Under the pieces are notes generated by a model, which was given only the letters and a program-made list of their open reading frames with translations, was not told the DNA's origin and made no database searches. Made by a program: the position numbers and the translations under genes. A stretch of DNA of 64,000 bases. Source: Akkermansia sp. RCC_12PD. GTDB taxonomy: Bacteria > Verrucomicrobiota > Verrucomicrobiia > Verrucomicrobiales > Akkermansiaceae. The DNA is taken from NCBI RefSeq assembly GCF_036417355.1, contig NZ_CP143889.1, positions 2,170,001 through 2,234,000 on the forward strand, in the 5' to 3' direction. Shown in pieces: positions 43,088 to 49,234 of the stretch; within the stretch, counting starts at the first letter, position 1, and each line of letters starts with the position of its first letter.

Positions 43088-43106
43088 GATTCAGGCTGAA
43101 GGGCTG

Positions 43107-44687
43107 TTAGTCGTCCAGCGGAAGCAGATCCACCAGGTCGGCCTTGGTTTCCGGTCTTTGGCGGATTTCCTGCAGCTTGGCTTTCATCTGCTCGCAGATG
43201 TCCGGATGCTGCTCGGCCAGATTGTTGAGTTCCTTTGGGTCCTTTTCCAGGTCAAACAGGCTGCCGCCTTTCGGGGACTTGCTCATTTTCGCTCCCAGTC
43301 CGTTGAGCCCGTCGCGGATGGCTACGCCGGCGGGAATGAACTTCCATTTGCCGTGGCGGATGGCCAGCGCCTTGCCGGTGCTGTTGATGACGTGGTAATC
43401 GCGGCCCTTGGCGGATTTGCCCAGCAGGGCGGGCATCACGTTTTCAGAGTCGCGGAAGGAATTGGACTTGCCGGGTTCCAGGAGCTGTTCCAGGGAGGCG
43501 CCCAGGTCCATCTGGTTGAGCAGGGCCTTGCTCGTGGTTCCGGGTTTGATTACACTGGGCCATTTGACAATGAACGGAATGCGGGAACCGCCTTCCAGAA
43601 TGCTGTATTTTCCGGCGCGGAAAGGACCTGCCGGGGAGTGGGTGGCATTGTCCCGGATGGCGAAATCCTTGTAGCCGTCGTCCAGCACAGGGCCGTTGTC
43701 GCTGGAGAAAATCACCAAGGCGTCCTTTTCCAGGCCGGCTTTTTGCAGAGCTTCCGTGATGCGGCTCACGCATTCGTCCAGCTCCACGGTCACGTCACCG
43801 CGTACGCCGTGCTGGCTCTTGCCCACAAAGCGTTTTTCCGGGCAGCGCGGCACGTGGATGTCGTGCGTGGCGAACATCAGGAAAAACGGTTCCTTGGCCT
43901 TGGCGCTTTTCTGGATGTATTCAATGGCCTTGTCCGTGATCACATCAGCGTTTTCCTCATCCTTCCACAGGGCGCTTTTGCCGCCTTTCATGAAGCCGAT
44001 GCGACCGATGCCGTTGATGACAGCCTGGTTGTGCCCGTGACTCCACATGAGCTTGAGCTGGTCCTTGTTGTCTTTCCCGTTCGGAAGGCCGGGGAAGTTG
44101 TGCTGGTAGGACACTTCAATGGGATCGTTCGGGTCCAGATTGCGGACGTTGCCGTTTTCCAGAATCACGCAGGGAACGCGGTCGCCCGTGGCGGCGAAGA
44201 TGAAGCTTTCATCAAAACCGATTTCATTTGGGCTGGGGGCGATGTGCTTGTTCCAGTCAATCTTTTTTCCCTTTTCTCCCAGGCCCAGGTGCCACTTGCC
44301 TACCATGTAGGTCTTATAACCGTGGGATTGGAGCATCTTGGGTAGCGTGGGCTTCTTGGTGTCGATAATCAGGGCGGCGTCTCCGGGCAGAATGCCCGTG
44401 CCTTCCTTGCGCCAGGGATATTCCCCCGTAAACAGGGCATACCGGGAAGGTGTGCAGACGGAGGTGGTGGAATAGGCGTCCGTAAAGCGGACGCCCTGTT
44501 TGGCAAGCTTGTCTATGGCAGGGGTGGGAATCCCCTTGGCTCCATAACAGCCTATGTCTCCGTAACCAAGGTCGTCAGCGTAAATCATGACGATGGCTTT
44601 GGGAGGATTGATCTTGGATGCGGCCACGGCCGTGCAGGCGGTTGCCGCGGCCAGGGTCAGCATGAGGTGTATTGCGGGTTTGTACAT
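43107..44687 (-). CDS. exported type I sulfatase (family S1)
   Basis: A 526-residue sulfatase that would remove sulfate esters from glycans such as mucin O-glycans. It has a signal peptide (to about residue 22) and the metal-binding YADDLGYGD (residues 37-44). The activation motif is SVCTPSRYALFTGEYPWR, where Cys78 would be converted to formylglycine by a maturase encoded elsewhere. Later residues GKWHLGLGEK and FSSDNGP add the remaining metal and sulfate ligands. The S1 subfamily and the linkage it acts on cannot be told by eye. An AI-2E-type permease gene ends 20 bases upstream on the same strand. Confidence 0.9.
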   Translation of the reverse strand: MYKPAIHLMLTLAAATACTAVAASKINPPKAIVMIYADDLGYGDIGCYGAKGIPTPAIDKLAKQGVRFTDAYSTTSVCTPSRYALFTGEYPWRKEGTGILPGDAALIIDTKKPTLPKMLQSHGYKTYMVGKWHLGLGEKGKKIDWNKHIAPSPNEIGFDESFIFAATGDRVPCVILENGNVRNLDPNDPIEVSYQHNFPGLPNGKDNKDQLKLMWSHGHNQAVINGIGRIGFMKGGKSALWKDEENADVITDKAIEYIQKSAKAKEPFFLMFATHDIHVPRCPEKRFVGKSQHGVRGDVTVELDECVSRITEALQKAGLEKDALVIFSSDNGPVLDDGYKDFAIRDNATHSPAGPFRAGKYSILEGGSRIPFIVKWPSVIKPGTTSKALLNQMDLGASLEQLLEPGKSNSFRDSENVMPALLGKSAKGRDYHVINSTGKALAIRHGKWKFIPAGVAIRDGLNGLGAKMSKSPKGGSLFDLEKDPKELNNLAEQHPDICEQMKAKLQEIRQRPETKADLVDLLPLDD

Positions 44688-46041: not shown

Positions 46042-47364
46042 TTACGCAGTGGGGGCATCCCCGGTTTTCCTGCCTGGCGCCGGAGAAGATTCGGACGGAT
46101 TTAGCGATGGGTTGGGAGACGTCTGCTGCGGTTCCGGCTGCTGCGATTGTTCCTGTTCTTTTTTTTCCTGTTGTTTCACATGGGCCTCGAATTCCTGTTC
46201 CGTGATTGCCTGGGGAGTGGGATGATAGTCCCCGGCGGGCGGTGCGGCCGGCACTTTCCAGTGAATATACACGAGTTTGTTTTTGCGCTGCACCAGGACG
46301 GAGGCCTGCGCTCCGCGTTGAGTGGTAACATACTCTACGAGGTCGGGATAGGGATTCTTTCGGCCATTGATGGAAACCAGGACATCGCCTGTTCTCAGAC
46401 CTGCGTTCCAGGCCGGGGACCACTCGGCCACAAAGGCCTTCATGGGGCCGTTCCCGTTCCGGTCCTGAATGAAGGTTCCCCCCATCAGGTTGAAGGAGGA
46501 AGGCCCGGGCATCGGGTGGCTGGTGGAGCTGAAATAAAGGGCGCATCCCGGTCCGTCCAGCCAGAACTGGCGGGAAATCAGCGCCCCGTAGCCCAGGATG
46601 ATGTCAATGTCATCCGGGATGCCCATCACCTCCGGATTGGCGAAACTCTCACAAAGAAGAATATTCTTCAACTCAAGCTGGCCAAGCTGGAAGGAGCTCA
46701 CATGCATGCACTCGTGGGCGTAAAATCCGCCCGCCGCCGGACTGTAGCCGGAATAAACACTCACAAAGGCATCCGGATAGGCCTGCTTGATGGCGTTCCA
46801 GCGTTTCTTGGAAATATAAACGGCGTGGGGTGCTCCCGTGTCCAGAATGATGCGGCGTCCGTGTTTGTCTGCAATTTGCGGATAATCGGCCCCCGGAATC
46901 AGGGCCAGCTTGTGCCAGGACCGTATTCTGGAAGGCAGTTTATTGAAAAAACGGTGGGAACGTTTGGGGTAATTAATGTTCCAGACATACTTCCTGATGC
47001 ATTCCCATCCCAGCAATCCGTCGTAGGGTGCCTGGTCCACCATTACCACATCCTGCTTTCTGGAAATGGGCTCTCCATTCTGCTTCAGGGAAATGGGGAC
47101 ATTGGCCGTCCGCATGGCTCCCCGGCCGCGCAGACGCGCGCCGATGGACTCTACCGCCGGTGAAAAAAGAAGTGAAGTCTGGACCGCCCCCGTATCCACC
47201 CCCATCATCAACTGGGTTGAGGAGCTCCATGCAAGGGCTACAGGAGTGCCGTCCAGCGGGTTGGCTGCGTCGATGGGCGGCGAACTGCTGTCCTGGATAG
47301 GCCGGTGCGATACGCAGGAAACGCATAGCATGGTTGCCAGAAGCATGATGGAGGAACGGAACAT
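46042..47364 (-). CDS. lipoprotein with two retropepsin-like DTGA domains and a PDZ domain
   Basis: A 440-residue protein. From ATG 47364 it has a lipoprotein signal with lipobox CVSC. Two DTGA active-site-type motifs occur, at about residues 57-60 (MGVDTGAVQTSL) and 175-178 (IILDTGAPHAVYI). Each is followed by a DGLLGWE- or IILGYGA-type strand as in retropepsin-like aspartyl peptidases, suggesting a tandem pair that could supply both catalytic Asp residues in one chain. A PDZ domain follows (GLRTGDVLVSINGR, about 330-390), and the tail is Gln/Glu/Pro-rich. It would act at the envelope, probably as a protease. It is downstream of, and in opposite direction to, the serpin gene across about 120 bases. 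Confidence 0.7.
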   Translation of the reverse strand: MFRSSIMLLATMLCVSCVSHRPIQDSSSPPIDAANPLDGTPVALAWSSSTQLMMGVDTGAVQTSLLFSPAVESIGARLRGRGAMRTANVPISLKQNGEPISRKQDVVMVDQAPYDGLLGWECIRKYVWNINYPKRSHRFFNKLPSRIRSWHKLALIPGADYPQIADKHGRRIILDTGAPHAVYISKKRWNAIKQAYPDAFVSVYSGYSPAAGGFYAHECMHVSSFQLGQLELKNILLCESFANPEVMGIPDDIDIILGYGALISRQFWLDGPGCALYFSSTSHPMPGPSSFNLMGGTFIQDRNGNGPMKAFVAEWSPAWNAGLRTGDVLVSINGRKNPYPDLVEYVTTQRGAQASVLVQRKNKLVYIHWKVPAAPPAGDYHPTPQAITEQEFEAHVKQQEKKEQEQSQQPEPQQTSPNPSLNPSESSPAPGRKTGDAPTA

Positions 47365-47487
47365 AAAGCATTCCATTCATAACAAAAACATCAGGGGCTG
47401 GCAAGGTTTCCTTCCTGCTTATGAAGCTTTTTGACGGCATCGGTCCGTAAGACTTGCAACAGGACGACAGTTTGATAGGGTAGGAAC

Positions 47488-48774
47488 ATGATATTCAGGA
47501 TATTGGCGTATGCGTTCCTTTTGGCGCCCTTGTCATGGGGAGAGGTTCCGGTGTCTCCGGCTCCCCCCGTTTCCGCCCCTCCGGAGCTGCGCCTGCTGCA
47601 GGCGTGTGTGGAAAAAGGCGGCGGCAGCGTCATGGTTTCTCCTTTTTCCCTGTATGAAGTTCTTCGTTATGCGCTTCCTGGGGCGGCGGGAGAGACGGAA
47701 AGGCAGATAGCGGCCGTATTGCCCGGAGACGGGGCAATCAGGAAGGACTGGACTTTTCTGTCGGAGGATTTTTCGCGGTTGCTGCGCTGTTATTCCGCCA
47801 ACCGCATTTTTGCAGACCGGACCGTAGAACTAAAAGACGCCTATAAAAAGGCCGTTGGGGCGGACGGTGCAGTTCTGGCTCCCTTCCATGAAAATACGGC
47901 GGCAGCCGTGCGGCAGGTGAACGCCTGGGCGGCAAGGAACACGGAAAACCGCATCAGGCATCTTCTGAATCCGCGGCAGATGAGTGACCGGACAGTGCTT
48001 GTGCTGGTGAACGCCATGTATTTGAGGGCGTTTTGGGACAGTAAATTTGAAGGAAAGGATACCAGGCCGCGGACTTTTTTCCGGGAAGACGGCACATCCT
48101 GCAAGGTGCCCATGATGAAACAGCAGGTTTTCATGGAAGGAGGATCTTGGCCGCGGCAGGGAGGAATGTATTATGAAAAGGACGGCGTGCGGGGGGCCTC
48201 CCTGTTTTTCGCCGGCGGAAAGGGTGCGCCCGTTTTCATGGCCGTCCTCCCTCCGGATGGACGCAGGCTGAAGCAATTCATAGCCGGGCTGGCGGCAGAG
48301 GAATGGAACGGCATCCTGTCCTCCTTGTCCGCCCGCCATGCCGTGGAAAAAATGCGGGAACCCGGCGCGCCTCCCCTGGAACAATATGCCAGATATCATC
48401 TGCGGCTGCCCCGTTTCTCCCAGTCTTCCCATACGCTCTCCATGAAGGAAGCTCTGGAGGCTTTGGGAATGAAAGACGCGTTTAACGAGCGCGCCGATTT
48501 TTCACGGATGGGGAGCTGCGCGGGACAGCCGTTGAAAATCCATGACGTGTATCAGAAGTGCGCGATCAGGGTGCGGGAGGAGGGGTTGGAGGCATCCGTT
48601 TCCTCCTCCGGGGCAATGGATCCTTTTGCCGGCCCTCCTCCCCGCGGCAAGGGGCCGGAGATAGAATTCAACCGTCCCTTCCTGTGGCTCGTTTACAGTC
48701 CGGAGGACAGGGCCGTGCTGTTCATAGGGACATATGAAGGACCGGAATACGAGAGGAAGGAAGGAAAGTCATGA
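47488..48774 (+). CDS. secreted serpin-family protease inhibitor
   Basis: A 428-residue protein with a signal peptide (to about residue 18, ending SWGE). The serpin fold is shown by VMVSPFSLYEVLRYALPGAAGETERQI, LVLVNAMYLRAFWDSKF, VFMAVLPP and the C-terminal PFLWLVYSPEDRAVLFIG. The reactive-loop hinge reads REEGLEASVSSSGAMDPFAG. Counting 17 residues from the hinge Glu puts P1 at the Phe of DPF, with Ala at P1', which would fit chymotrypsin- or cathepsin G-like targets; this count is by eye. P14 is Leu rather than the usual Thr, so inhibitory action is likely but not certain. Bacterial serpins occur in some gut species and may blunt host or rival proteases. Confidence 0.85.
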   Translation: MIFRILAYAFLLAPLSWGEVPVSPAPPVSAPPELRLLQACVEKGGGSVMVSPFSLYEVLRYALPGAAGETERQIAAVLPGDGAIRKDWTFLSEDFSRLLRCYSANRIFADRTVELKDAYKKAVGADGAVLAPFHENTAAAVRQVNAWAARNTENRIRHLLNPRQMSDRTVLVLVNAMYLRAFWDSKFEGKDTRPRTFFREDGTSCKVPMMKQQVFMEGGSWPRQGGMYYEKDGVRGASLFFAGGKGAPVFMAVLPPDGRRLKQFIAGLAAEEWNGILSSLSARHAVEKMREPGAPPLEQYARYHLRLPRFSQSSHTLSMKEALEALGMKDAFNERADFSRMGSCAGQPLKIHDVYQKCAIRVREEGLEASVSSSGAMDPFAGPPPRGKGPEIEFNRPFLWLVYSPEDRAVLFIGTYEGPEYERKEGKS

Positions 48775-48838
48775 AGTTTGCGTGCTCCCAAAAATCTTGA
48801 TTTTCGCAGGGGCCCGTATAGGGTGGAGCGGAGCCGTT

Positions 48839-49234
48839 ATGACGATCCCCACCTTTGAAGAGGCCGTGAGCCGCATTGTGCAGAAAGACCCGCGTTTTGC
48901 GGAAAGGGCGTATTTCTTTCTGAAGGAAGCCCTGGACTTCACCATGCAGCGTATAGAAGAGCAGGAAAACGGCGCGCAGCGCCACGTCAGCGGGCAGGAA
49001 CTGCTGGAGGGATTCCGGGACTATGCCCTGAGCCAGTTCGGCCCCATGGCTTCTACCGTGCTTAAGGAATGGGGAATACGGAACGGCGGTCATGTAGGGG
49101 AAATGGTCTTTTTATTGATTGAAGAGGATGTCTTCTCCAAACAGCCGGAAGATTCCCTGGACGACTTCAAGGGATTCATGAGTTTCCGCAAGGCGTTTGA
49201 AGAGCCTTACGAATTTCAGGAACAGACTAACTGA
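48839..49234 (+). CDS. Minf_1886 family protein
   Basis: A 131-residue cytoplasmic protein. The ATG at 48839 begins the conserved FEEAVSRIVQKDPRFAERAYFFLKEALDFT typical of this family, which is shared by Verrucomicrobia and Planctomycetes; further motifs are HVSGQELLEGFRDYA and WGIRNGGHVGEMVFLLIE. The function is unknown. It is placed two bases before the agmatine deiminase start, so co-transcription is likely. Confidence 0.8.
   Translation: MTIPTFEEAVSRIVQKDPRFAERAYFFLKEALDFTMQRIEEQENGAQRHVSGQELLEGFRDYALSQFGPMASTVLKEWGIRNGGHVGEMVFLLIEEDVFSKQPEDSLDDFKGFMSFRKAFEEPYEFQEQTN

Follow-up and report, generated by a model that had tools for sequence, protein, structure and literature searches.

The serpin gene described here lies in a stretch of 64,000 nucleotides from Akkermansia sp. 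RCC_12PD (the window), whose source genome is designated G000; other G numbers denote further genomes of the genus, 76 genomes having been searched. In the translated open reading frame the gene runs from an ATG at 47488 to a TGA at 48772–48774, and by sequence its product is a genuine serpin that belongs to an already known kind. The Pfam profile PF00079 (Serpin) matches residues 35–417 with an E-value of 3.7e-62 and a score of 211 bits, the cut-off being 27; at positions 9–368 of the 370 in the profile this is a full-length family match, which bears out the serpin that the preliminary description had placed here. The same profile search finds no other Pfam domain in the protein. The window serpin is matched by 194 distinct PDB sequences at E ≤ 0.001, the best 60 of the 194 all being serpins with PAI-1 at the top (5.2e-27). 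An AlphaFold model built from a five-row alignment is poor (pLDDT 43.9) and superimposes on solved serpins with a TM of about 0.4 and an rmsd of 14–23 Å; the 50 matches listed for it by Foldseek are all serpins, the best with an E-value of 3e-14. Within G000, a single contig of 3,168,262 bases (3.17 Mb), the gene is the sole PF00079 match. A scan for promoters and terminators over 47300–48900 returned nothing scoring above shuffles.

Table 1. Features of the serpin locus, in window coordinates
Feature	Position	Strand	Basis
Serpin coding sequence, 428 aa	47488..48774	+	Open reading frame, PF00079 and PDB serpin matches
Likely Sec-type signal peptide, residues 1–18 (cleavage site approximate)	47488..47541	+	Hydropathy; no lipobox by a simple pattern
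Reactive centre loop P17–P1 (E364–F380), hinge EEGLEAS, bait MDPF	48577..48627	+	Hinge counting; orthologue conservation
Predicted scissile bond, P1 Phe380 / P1′ Ala381	48625..48630	+	Hinge counting, orthologues, loop comparison
Rest of P′ side, GPPPRGKGPEIE	48631..48666	+	Orthologue and loop comparison
Apparently imported tract with serpin, about 1.5 kb	47296..48813	.	Informative sites and identity matrices
Aspartyl-protease-like protein with PDZ domain, divergent neighbour	46042..47376	−	PF13650, PF17820
Minf_1886 family protein, next gene downstream	48839..49234	+	TIGR04138

The N-terminus, MIFRILAYAFLLAPLSWG, presents Arg4 and then a hydrophobic core, residues 5–15 forming the most hydrophobic 11-mer among starts 1–380 in a hydropathy scan of the window serpin (KD 2.27), and a simple pattern for the lipobox has no match there. 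Given a Gram-negative cell and an export signal, the periplasm is the likely default destination of the protein. The preliminary description had called it secreted, which is supported as far as export by a likely signal peptide. On the left, the divergent aspartyl-protease-like gene has its first ~80 bp inside the apparently imported tract, and the strings DTG and LLG are visible in its translation. On the right, the DNA of the Minf_1886 gene is also present in five genomes that lack the serpin body. Upstream of that gene, 48791–48825 holds the palindrome AAAATCTTGATTTT followed by GTATAGGGTG, and the palindrome too recurs in those five genomes.

The reactive centre loop reads E364-E-G-L-E-A-S-V-S-S-S-G-A-M-D-P-F380 / A381-G-P-P-P-R-G-K-G-P-E-I-E and then passes into FNRPF. 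Counting from the hinge puts P17 at E364, P15 at G366, P14 at L367, P1 at F380 (codon 48625–48627) and P1′ at A381. From P17 to the residue preceding FNRPF the loop measures 30 residues, other loops measuring 24–39, with 17 of 60 at 30 or more. The P17–P1 segment of 17 residues carries, across the loops of its clade, Gly at P15, Ala at P12, Ser at P9 and Ser or Thr at P8, and the inward positions from P14 to P2 read L-A-V/A-S/T-G/D-M-P, all small or hydrophobic except for the Asp at P6 in G009 and G010. The P17–P9 consensus of inhibitory serpins, ExGTEAAAA in passages of PMC8233489, is matched in part by the EEGLEASVS of the window: P17 E, P15 G, P13 E and P12 A are kept, while P14 has changed from T to L and P11–P9 read S-V-S.

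When the protein is aligned with PDB serpins by HMMER, the hinge is matched consistently, but gaps fall in the loop and P1 is not placed: the Arg-Met of PAI-1, which we take to be its P1–P1′, falls opposite Arg386-Gly387, and the Arg-Ser of antithrombin falls opposite Pro383-Pro384. The P1 obtained by counting is preferred on two grounds: the P side has to be accommodated in sheet A, and the conserved residue is Phe rather than Arg. The Phe/Ala bond proposed in the preliminary description is thus supported by the hinge count and by orthologue conservation rather than by structure, the gapped PDB alignments lending Phe380 no support. A trypsin-like P1 at Arg386, prompted by the PAI-1 alignment, was tried and rejected: three of the five intact orthologues have Leu at this position, and such a P1 would stretch the P side to 23 residues. 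According to passages of PMC5127057, siropins are cleaved two and five bonds off their predicted P1–P1′ bond, so a P1 placed by counting is itself a prediction.

Intact orthologues occur in 5 of the 76 genomes of the genus, namely G000, G004 (81% identical), G044 (77%), and G010 and G009 (74% each). In all five, M377, P379, F380, A381 and G382 are invariant and residue 378 is D or E, giving M-[DE]-P-F/A-G, and the frameshifted copy in G011 likewise reads MDPFAG. Pairwise dN/dS, obtained by a counting method without a significance test, is 0.20–0.25 over the whole gene and 0.12–0.29 over the 30 codons of the loop in nine of the ten pairs; the tenth, G009–G010, is nearly identical and, at 0.73 on a dS of 0.019, too similar to judge. 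Agmatine deiminase, encoded two genes away, has a dN/dS of 0.11–0.17, below the gene-wide figure for the serpin, so the constraint on the serpin is moderate. Low loop dN/dS together with the invariant bait residues indicates that the bait is maintained under that moderate constraint rather than diversified.

Loops for comparison came from 107 matches, amounting to 73 different open reading frames; once four rows without a readable loop had been dropped and identical loops collapsed, 5 loops of the window clade and 60 others were left (56 within the genus and 4 beyond it), which are sampled loci and not all serpins of the genus. By the same counting, Phe stands at P1 in none of the 60. At P14 the 60 have Thr in 51 cases, Val in 5, and Ile, Ala, Phe and Pro in one each, and never the Leu that occupies this position in all five distinct loops of the window clade. 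The hinge is therefore atypical at P14, a point that the preliminary description had not remarked on. The same description had singled out the Pro-rich P′ stretch as unusual; with Pro after P1 in 55 of the 60 other loops, a Pro-bearing P′ side is ordinary, and three or more Pro are found in 21 of the 60 and four or more, four being the number in the window loop, in 6. In the tree, the window clade splits from the other rows at 100/100 on a stem of 1.84 changes per column. The other Akkermansia serpins, at least one PF00079 match being present in 57 of the 76 genomes, share family and genus with the window serpin and are about 25–35% identical to it in the longer matches; they differ in a mostly canonical hinge of the GTEAAA type and in a P1 of Gly, Arg, Lys, Ser or another residue, with no Phe among the 60 loops.

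Two side observations arose from this set. The pattern PF[AG][AG] also appears in 3 of the 60 other loops, those of distant serpins of the genus (L043, L026 and L091, from G002, G012 and G057), one residue nearer the hinge; 2 of 5000 shuffles reach as high a recurrence, and the pattern was picked post hoc, which makes it a lead only. The loci L078, L081, L084 and L087 (in G002, G016, G022 and G017) are adjoining serpin genes in arrays with widely differing loops. Species with such arrays reach 12–13 PF00079 matches per genome, counted as matches and not genes; contamination in G002 is 6%, and this assembly includes contigs that are near duplicates.

Substitutions at P14 can turn serpins into substrates. 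If the P14 Leu hinders loop insertion, the window protein might be a serpin whose inhibition is lost or reduced and which is simply cut, serving as a bait, binding or storage protein. Both the exclusive Leu of the clade and its long stem would suit such a protein. Set against them, a hydrophobic P14 (V or I) recurs in 6 of the 60 other loops, of whatever inhibitory status, the small residues from P12 to P8 are kept, and the near-invariance from P4 to P2′ is not something that a non-inhibitory loop obviously needs; we consider this explanation unlikely.

The reading that we favour, and regard as probable, is an exported suicide inhibitor of the chymotrypsin type, directed against proteases of external origin. 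Three features suit it: inward loop residues that are mostly small or hydrophobic, a bait open to a chymotrypsin-like enzyme, and a sequence that is in other respects that of a standard serpin. Counting against it are the Leu at P14 and the want of an intact copy in seven of 12 closely related genomes. A chymotrypsin-like protease would attack the Phe380–Ala381 bond, whose surroundings, MDPF/AG, resemble the AAPF type of chymotrypsin and cathepsin G substrate; the cleaved loop would then insert into sheet A and trap the enzyme covalently. The target would come from the host pancreas, mast cells or neutrophils, or from other gut microbes, and host or digestive proteases may reasonably be inferred as targets. 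The serpin would act either within the periplasm or once released, in a manner comparable to the protection proposed for E. coli by its ecotin.

Conceivably, the serpin could instead regulate one of the cell's own periplasmic proteases. The source genome has four matches to the trypsin family (PF00089), and the serpin gene lies head-to-head with a protease-like gene. That neighbour, however, is of the aspartyl type, not a usual serpin target. Each of the 12 close genomes, G000 included, likewise has 4–5 PF00089 matches (5 in G011), serpin or not, although these are counts only and not orthology, and none of the 12 has a match to the S8 family (PF00082). As far as a search of the cell's own proteases by these two profiles goes, the lack of PF00082 and the equal PF00089 counts in relatives without an intact serpin make an outside enzyme the better guess, and self-regulation appears distinctly improbable.

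Several known inhibitors bear comparison with the proposed one. The siropins of Eubacterium siraeum, miropin of Tannerella forsythia and the serpin of Bifidobacterium longum belong to group T and, like the window serpin, come from host-associated bacteria; this host association is the likeness meant, the tree of the window serpin having been built without group T reference sequences. Siropins act on neutrophil elastase and proteinase 3 and leave chymotrypsin uninhibited, according to passages of PMC5127057; the window loop is set apart by its P1 Phe, as placed by counting, and its P14 Leu. A bacterial serpin that inhibits chymotrypsin and forms a covalent complex with it is described in part of PMC8201313, namely thermopin of Thermobifida fusca. 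Thermopin belongs to group U and to a moderate thermophile, whereas the window serpin comes from a gut organism. Ecotin, whose fold is unrelated to serpins, works as is proposed for the window serpin without being a member of the family, and offers a precedent for a periplasmic shield. In passages of the review PMC9904509, ecotin is a periplasmic E. coli protein that blocks serine proteases of the host, chymotrypsin and cathepsin G among them; it is 16 kDa in size, dimeric and reversible in action, and is named a member of the serpin superfamily.

The serpin gene behaves as an optional trait that, on comparison of genomes, has been repeatedly lost among sister species. The close group consists of 12 genomes including G000, the other eleven being 84–94% identical to it in agmatine deiminase and the next 76% or less. 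Five of the 12 have an intact serpin; in the other seven the gene is reduced to a short remnant site, partly deleted or frameshifted. In G008 an in-frame deletion of about residues 268–380 has removed P1. G011 carries a frameshift, possibly an assembly error since this genome seems to be a single metagenome assembly. In G001, G046, G005, G006 and G007, 201–247 bases (anchor to anchor) replace the serpin between the same two neighbours; G005 is presumably the type strain of A. muciniphila. For G001, G005, G006 and G007, four of the five, the best local alignment to the serpin begins exactly at its ATG, with scores against the maxima of 200 shuffles of 46/35, 44/41, 71/37 and 74/43, respectively, G005 being barely above. 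G046 alone gives no alignment from the serpin ATG, and its score of 48 elsewhere is equalled in 1 of 200 shuffles. G006 and G007, 99% identical at the remnant, are not independent cases. On a species tree built from agmatine deiminase together with some 1.5 kb of DNA downstream of it, a tree with inner nodes that are in part weakly supported, four distinct lesions can be told apart: those of G001/G046, of G005–G007, of G008 and of G011.

So widespread a decay, affecting 7 of 12 close genomes, is what would be expected of a passenger gene on its way out and devoid of current function. Yet the intact copies keep a dN/dS near 0.2 with a nearly invariant bait, and the intact copy of G000 sits inside an apparently imported tract; this explanation strikes us as very improbable.

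The evidence for import lies in the flanks of the gene. Informative sites were those at which G001 and G046, the sisters of G000, agree and differ from a state shared by G004 and G011. G000 shares the state of the sisters at 37 of 42 such sites in 46905–47272, that of G004/G011 at 32 of 39 in 47296–47486, and once more that of the sisters at 48 of 50 in 48825–49195. The left switch, between 47272 and 47296, is well supported; the evidence for the right one, between 48813 and 48825, consists of four sites at 48807–48813 where G000 is G004/G011-like. Sites within the serpin gene compare G000 with the remnant of the sisters only and are not reliable, and the informative import flank is short, comprising 87 coding and 111 intergenic bp. 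Identities switch in the same manner: across the coding part, 47290–47376, G000 is 97–98% identical to G004/G011 and 77–78% to the sisters, as against 84–85% and 93–94%, respectively, in 46600–47280. Over 39.5–52 kb, G000 is mostly 85–95% identical to G001 and G046 and, outside a sulfatase stretch, about 70–87% identical to G004. In 47290–47376, G004 is 99, 92 and 89% identical to G011, G044 and G010, versus 97, 93 and 92% outside; because G004 thus keeps about its usual relations there, import into G000 is more likely than transfer out of it. Trees point the same way, the serpin tree placing G000 with G004/G011 (96/89) and the neighbouring DNA placing it with G001/G046 (85/82), as does dS, which between G000 and G004 is lower for the serpin (0.42) than for agmatine deiminase (0.69) and between G004 and G044 is higher (0.52 vs. 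0.28). Together, these comparisons make it appear that G000 regained its serpin by homologous recombination from a G004/G011-like species. Since the serpin DNA is 85% and the intergenic stretch 77% identical between G000 and G004, the donor would be a relative of the G004 lineage and not G004 itself, or the import is old.

Recombination between Akkermansia phylogroups has been published (PMC5648452, in part of its text). A second recombination tract is seen at 43101–44500, over a sulfatase gene (43107–44687), in which G000 is 90–94% identical to G004 and G011 and 86–89% to the sisters. With this tract present, the serpin tract is not singular in the approximately 17 kb examined.

Akkermansia is a much-studied mucus dweller and a next-generation probiotic. 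The most interesting part of the present case is the apparent combination of repeated serpin loss with gene-sized re-import; what appears new is the pattern of loss and remnants in the 12 close genomes, together with the import tract. The conserved Phe bait yields a concrete prediction of the kind of protease resisted, and the presence or absence of the serpin among closely related species provides ready-made comparisons. Should the type strain of A. muciniphila indeed retain nothing but a remnant, results obtained with it would not represent the genus in this respect. More tentatively, one might picture the chymotrypsin-directed serpin as a switchable host-adaptation trait of the close A. muciniphila relatives, repeatedly lost, its bait kept wherever it is retained, and restored here by a barely gene-sized tract, such that strains would differ in their resistance to one specific gut protease; we rate this broader picture as possible but doubtful.

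Neither Akkermansia nor Verrucomicrobia is mentioned in the main text of a phylogeny of serpins from 2021 (PMC8233489), a review from 2019 (PMC6718151) or a review of gut serpins (PMC8201313), and the word serpin is absent from those parts of the 39-isolate Akkermansia genome paper (PMC5648452) that were available. Within the open-licence literature, the matches listed include, by titles and abstract starts, no paper on a serpin of Akkermansia itself, and no paper joining Verrucomicrobia with prokaryotic or bacterial serpins was found; the serpin that accompanies Akkermansia in PMC10079265 belongs, by the portion of that paper at hand, to the host. Scans of viral contigs gave no relative. Serpin-like stretches of 26–29% identity are present in L098 (6150–7211) and L099 (5001–5678), two "Bacteriophage sp." contigs from human faeces whose records are marked UNVERIFIED and are unannotated.
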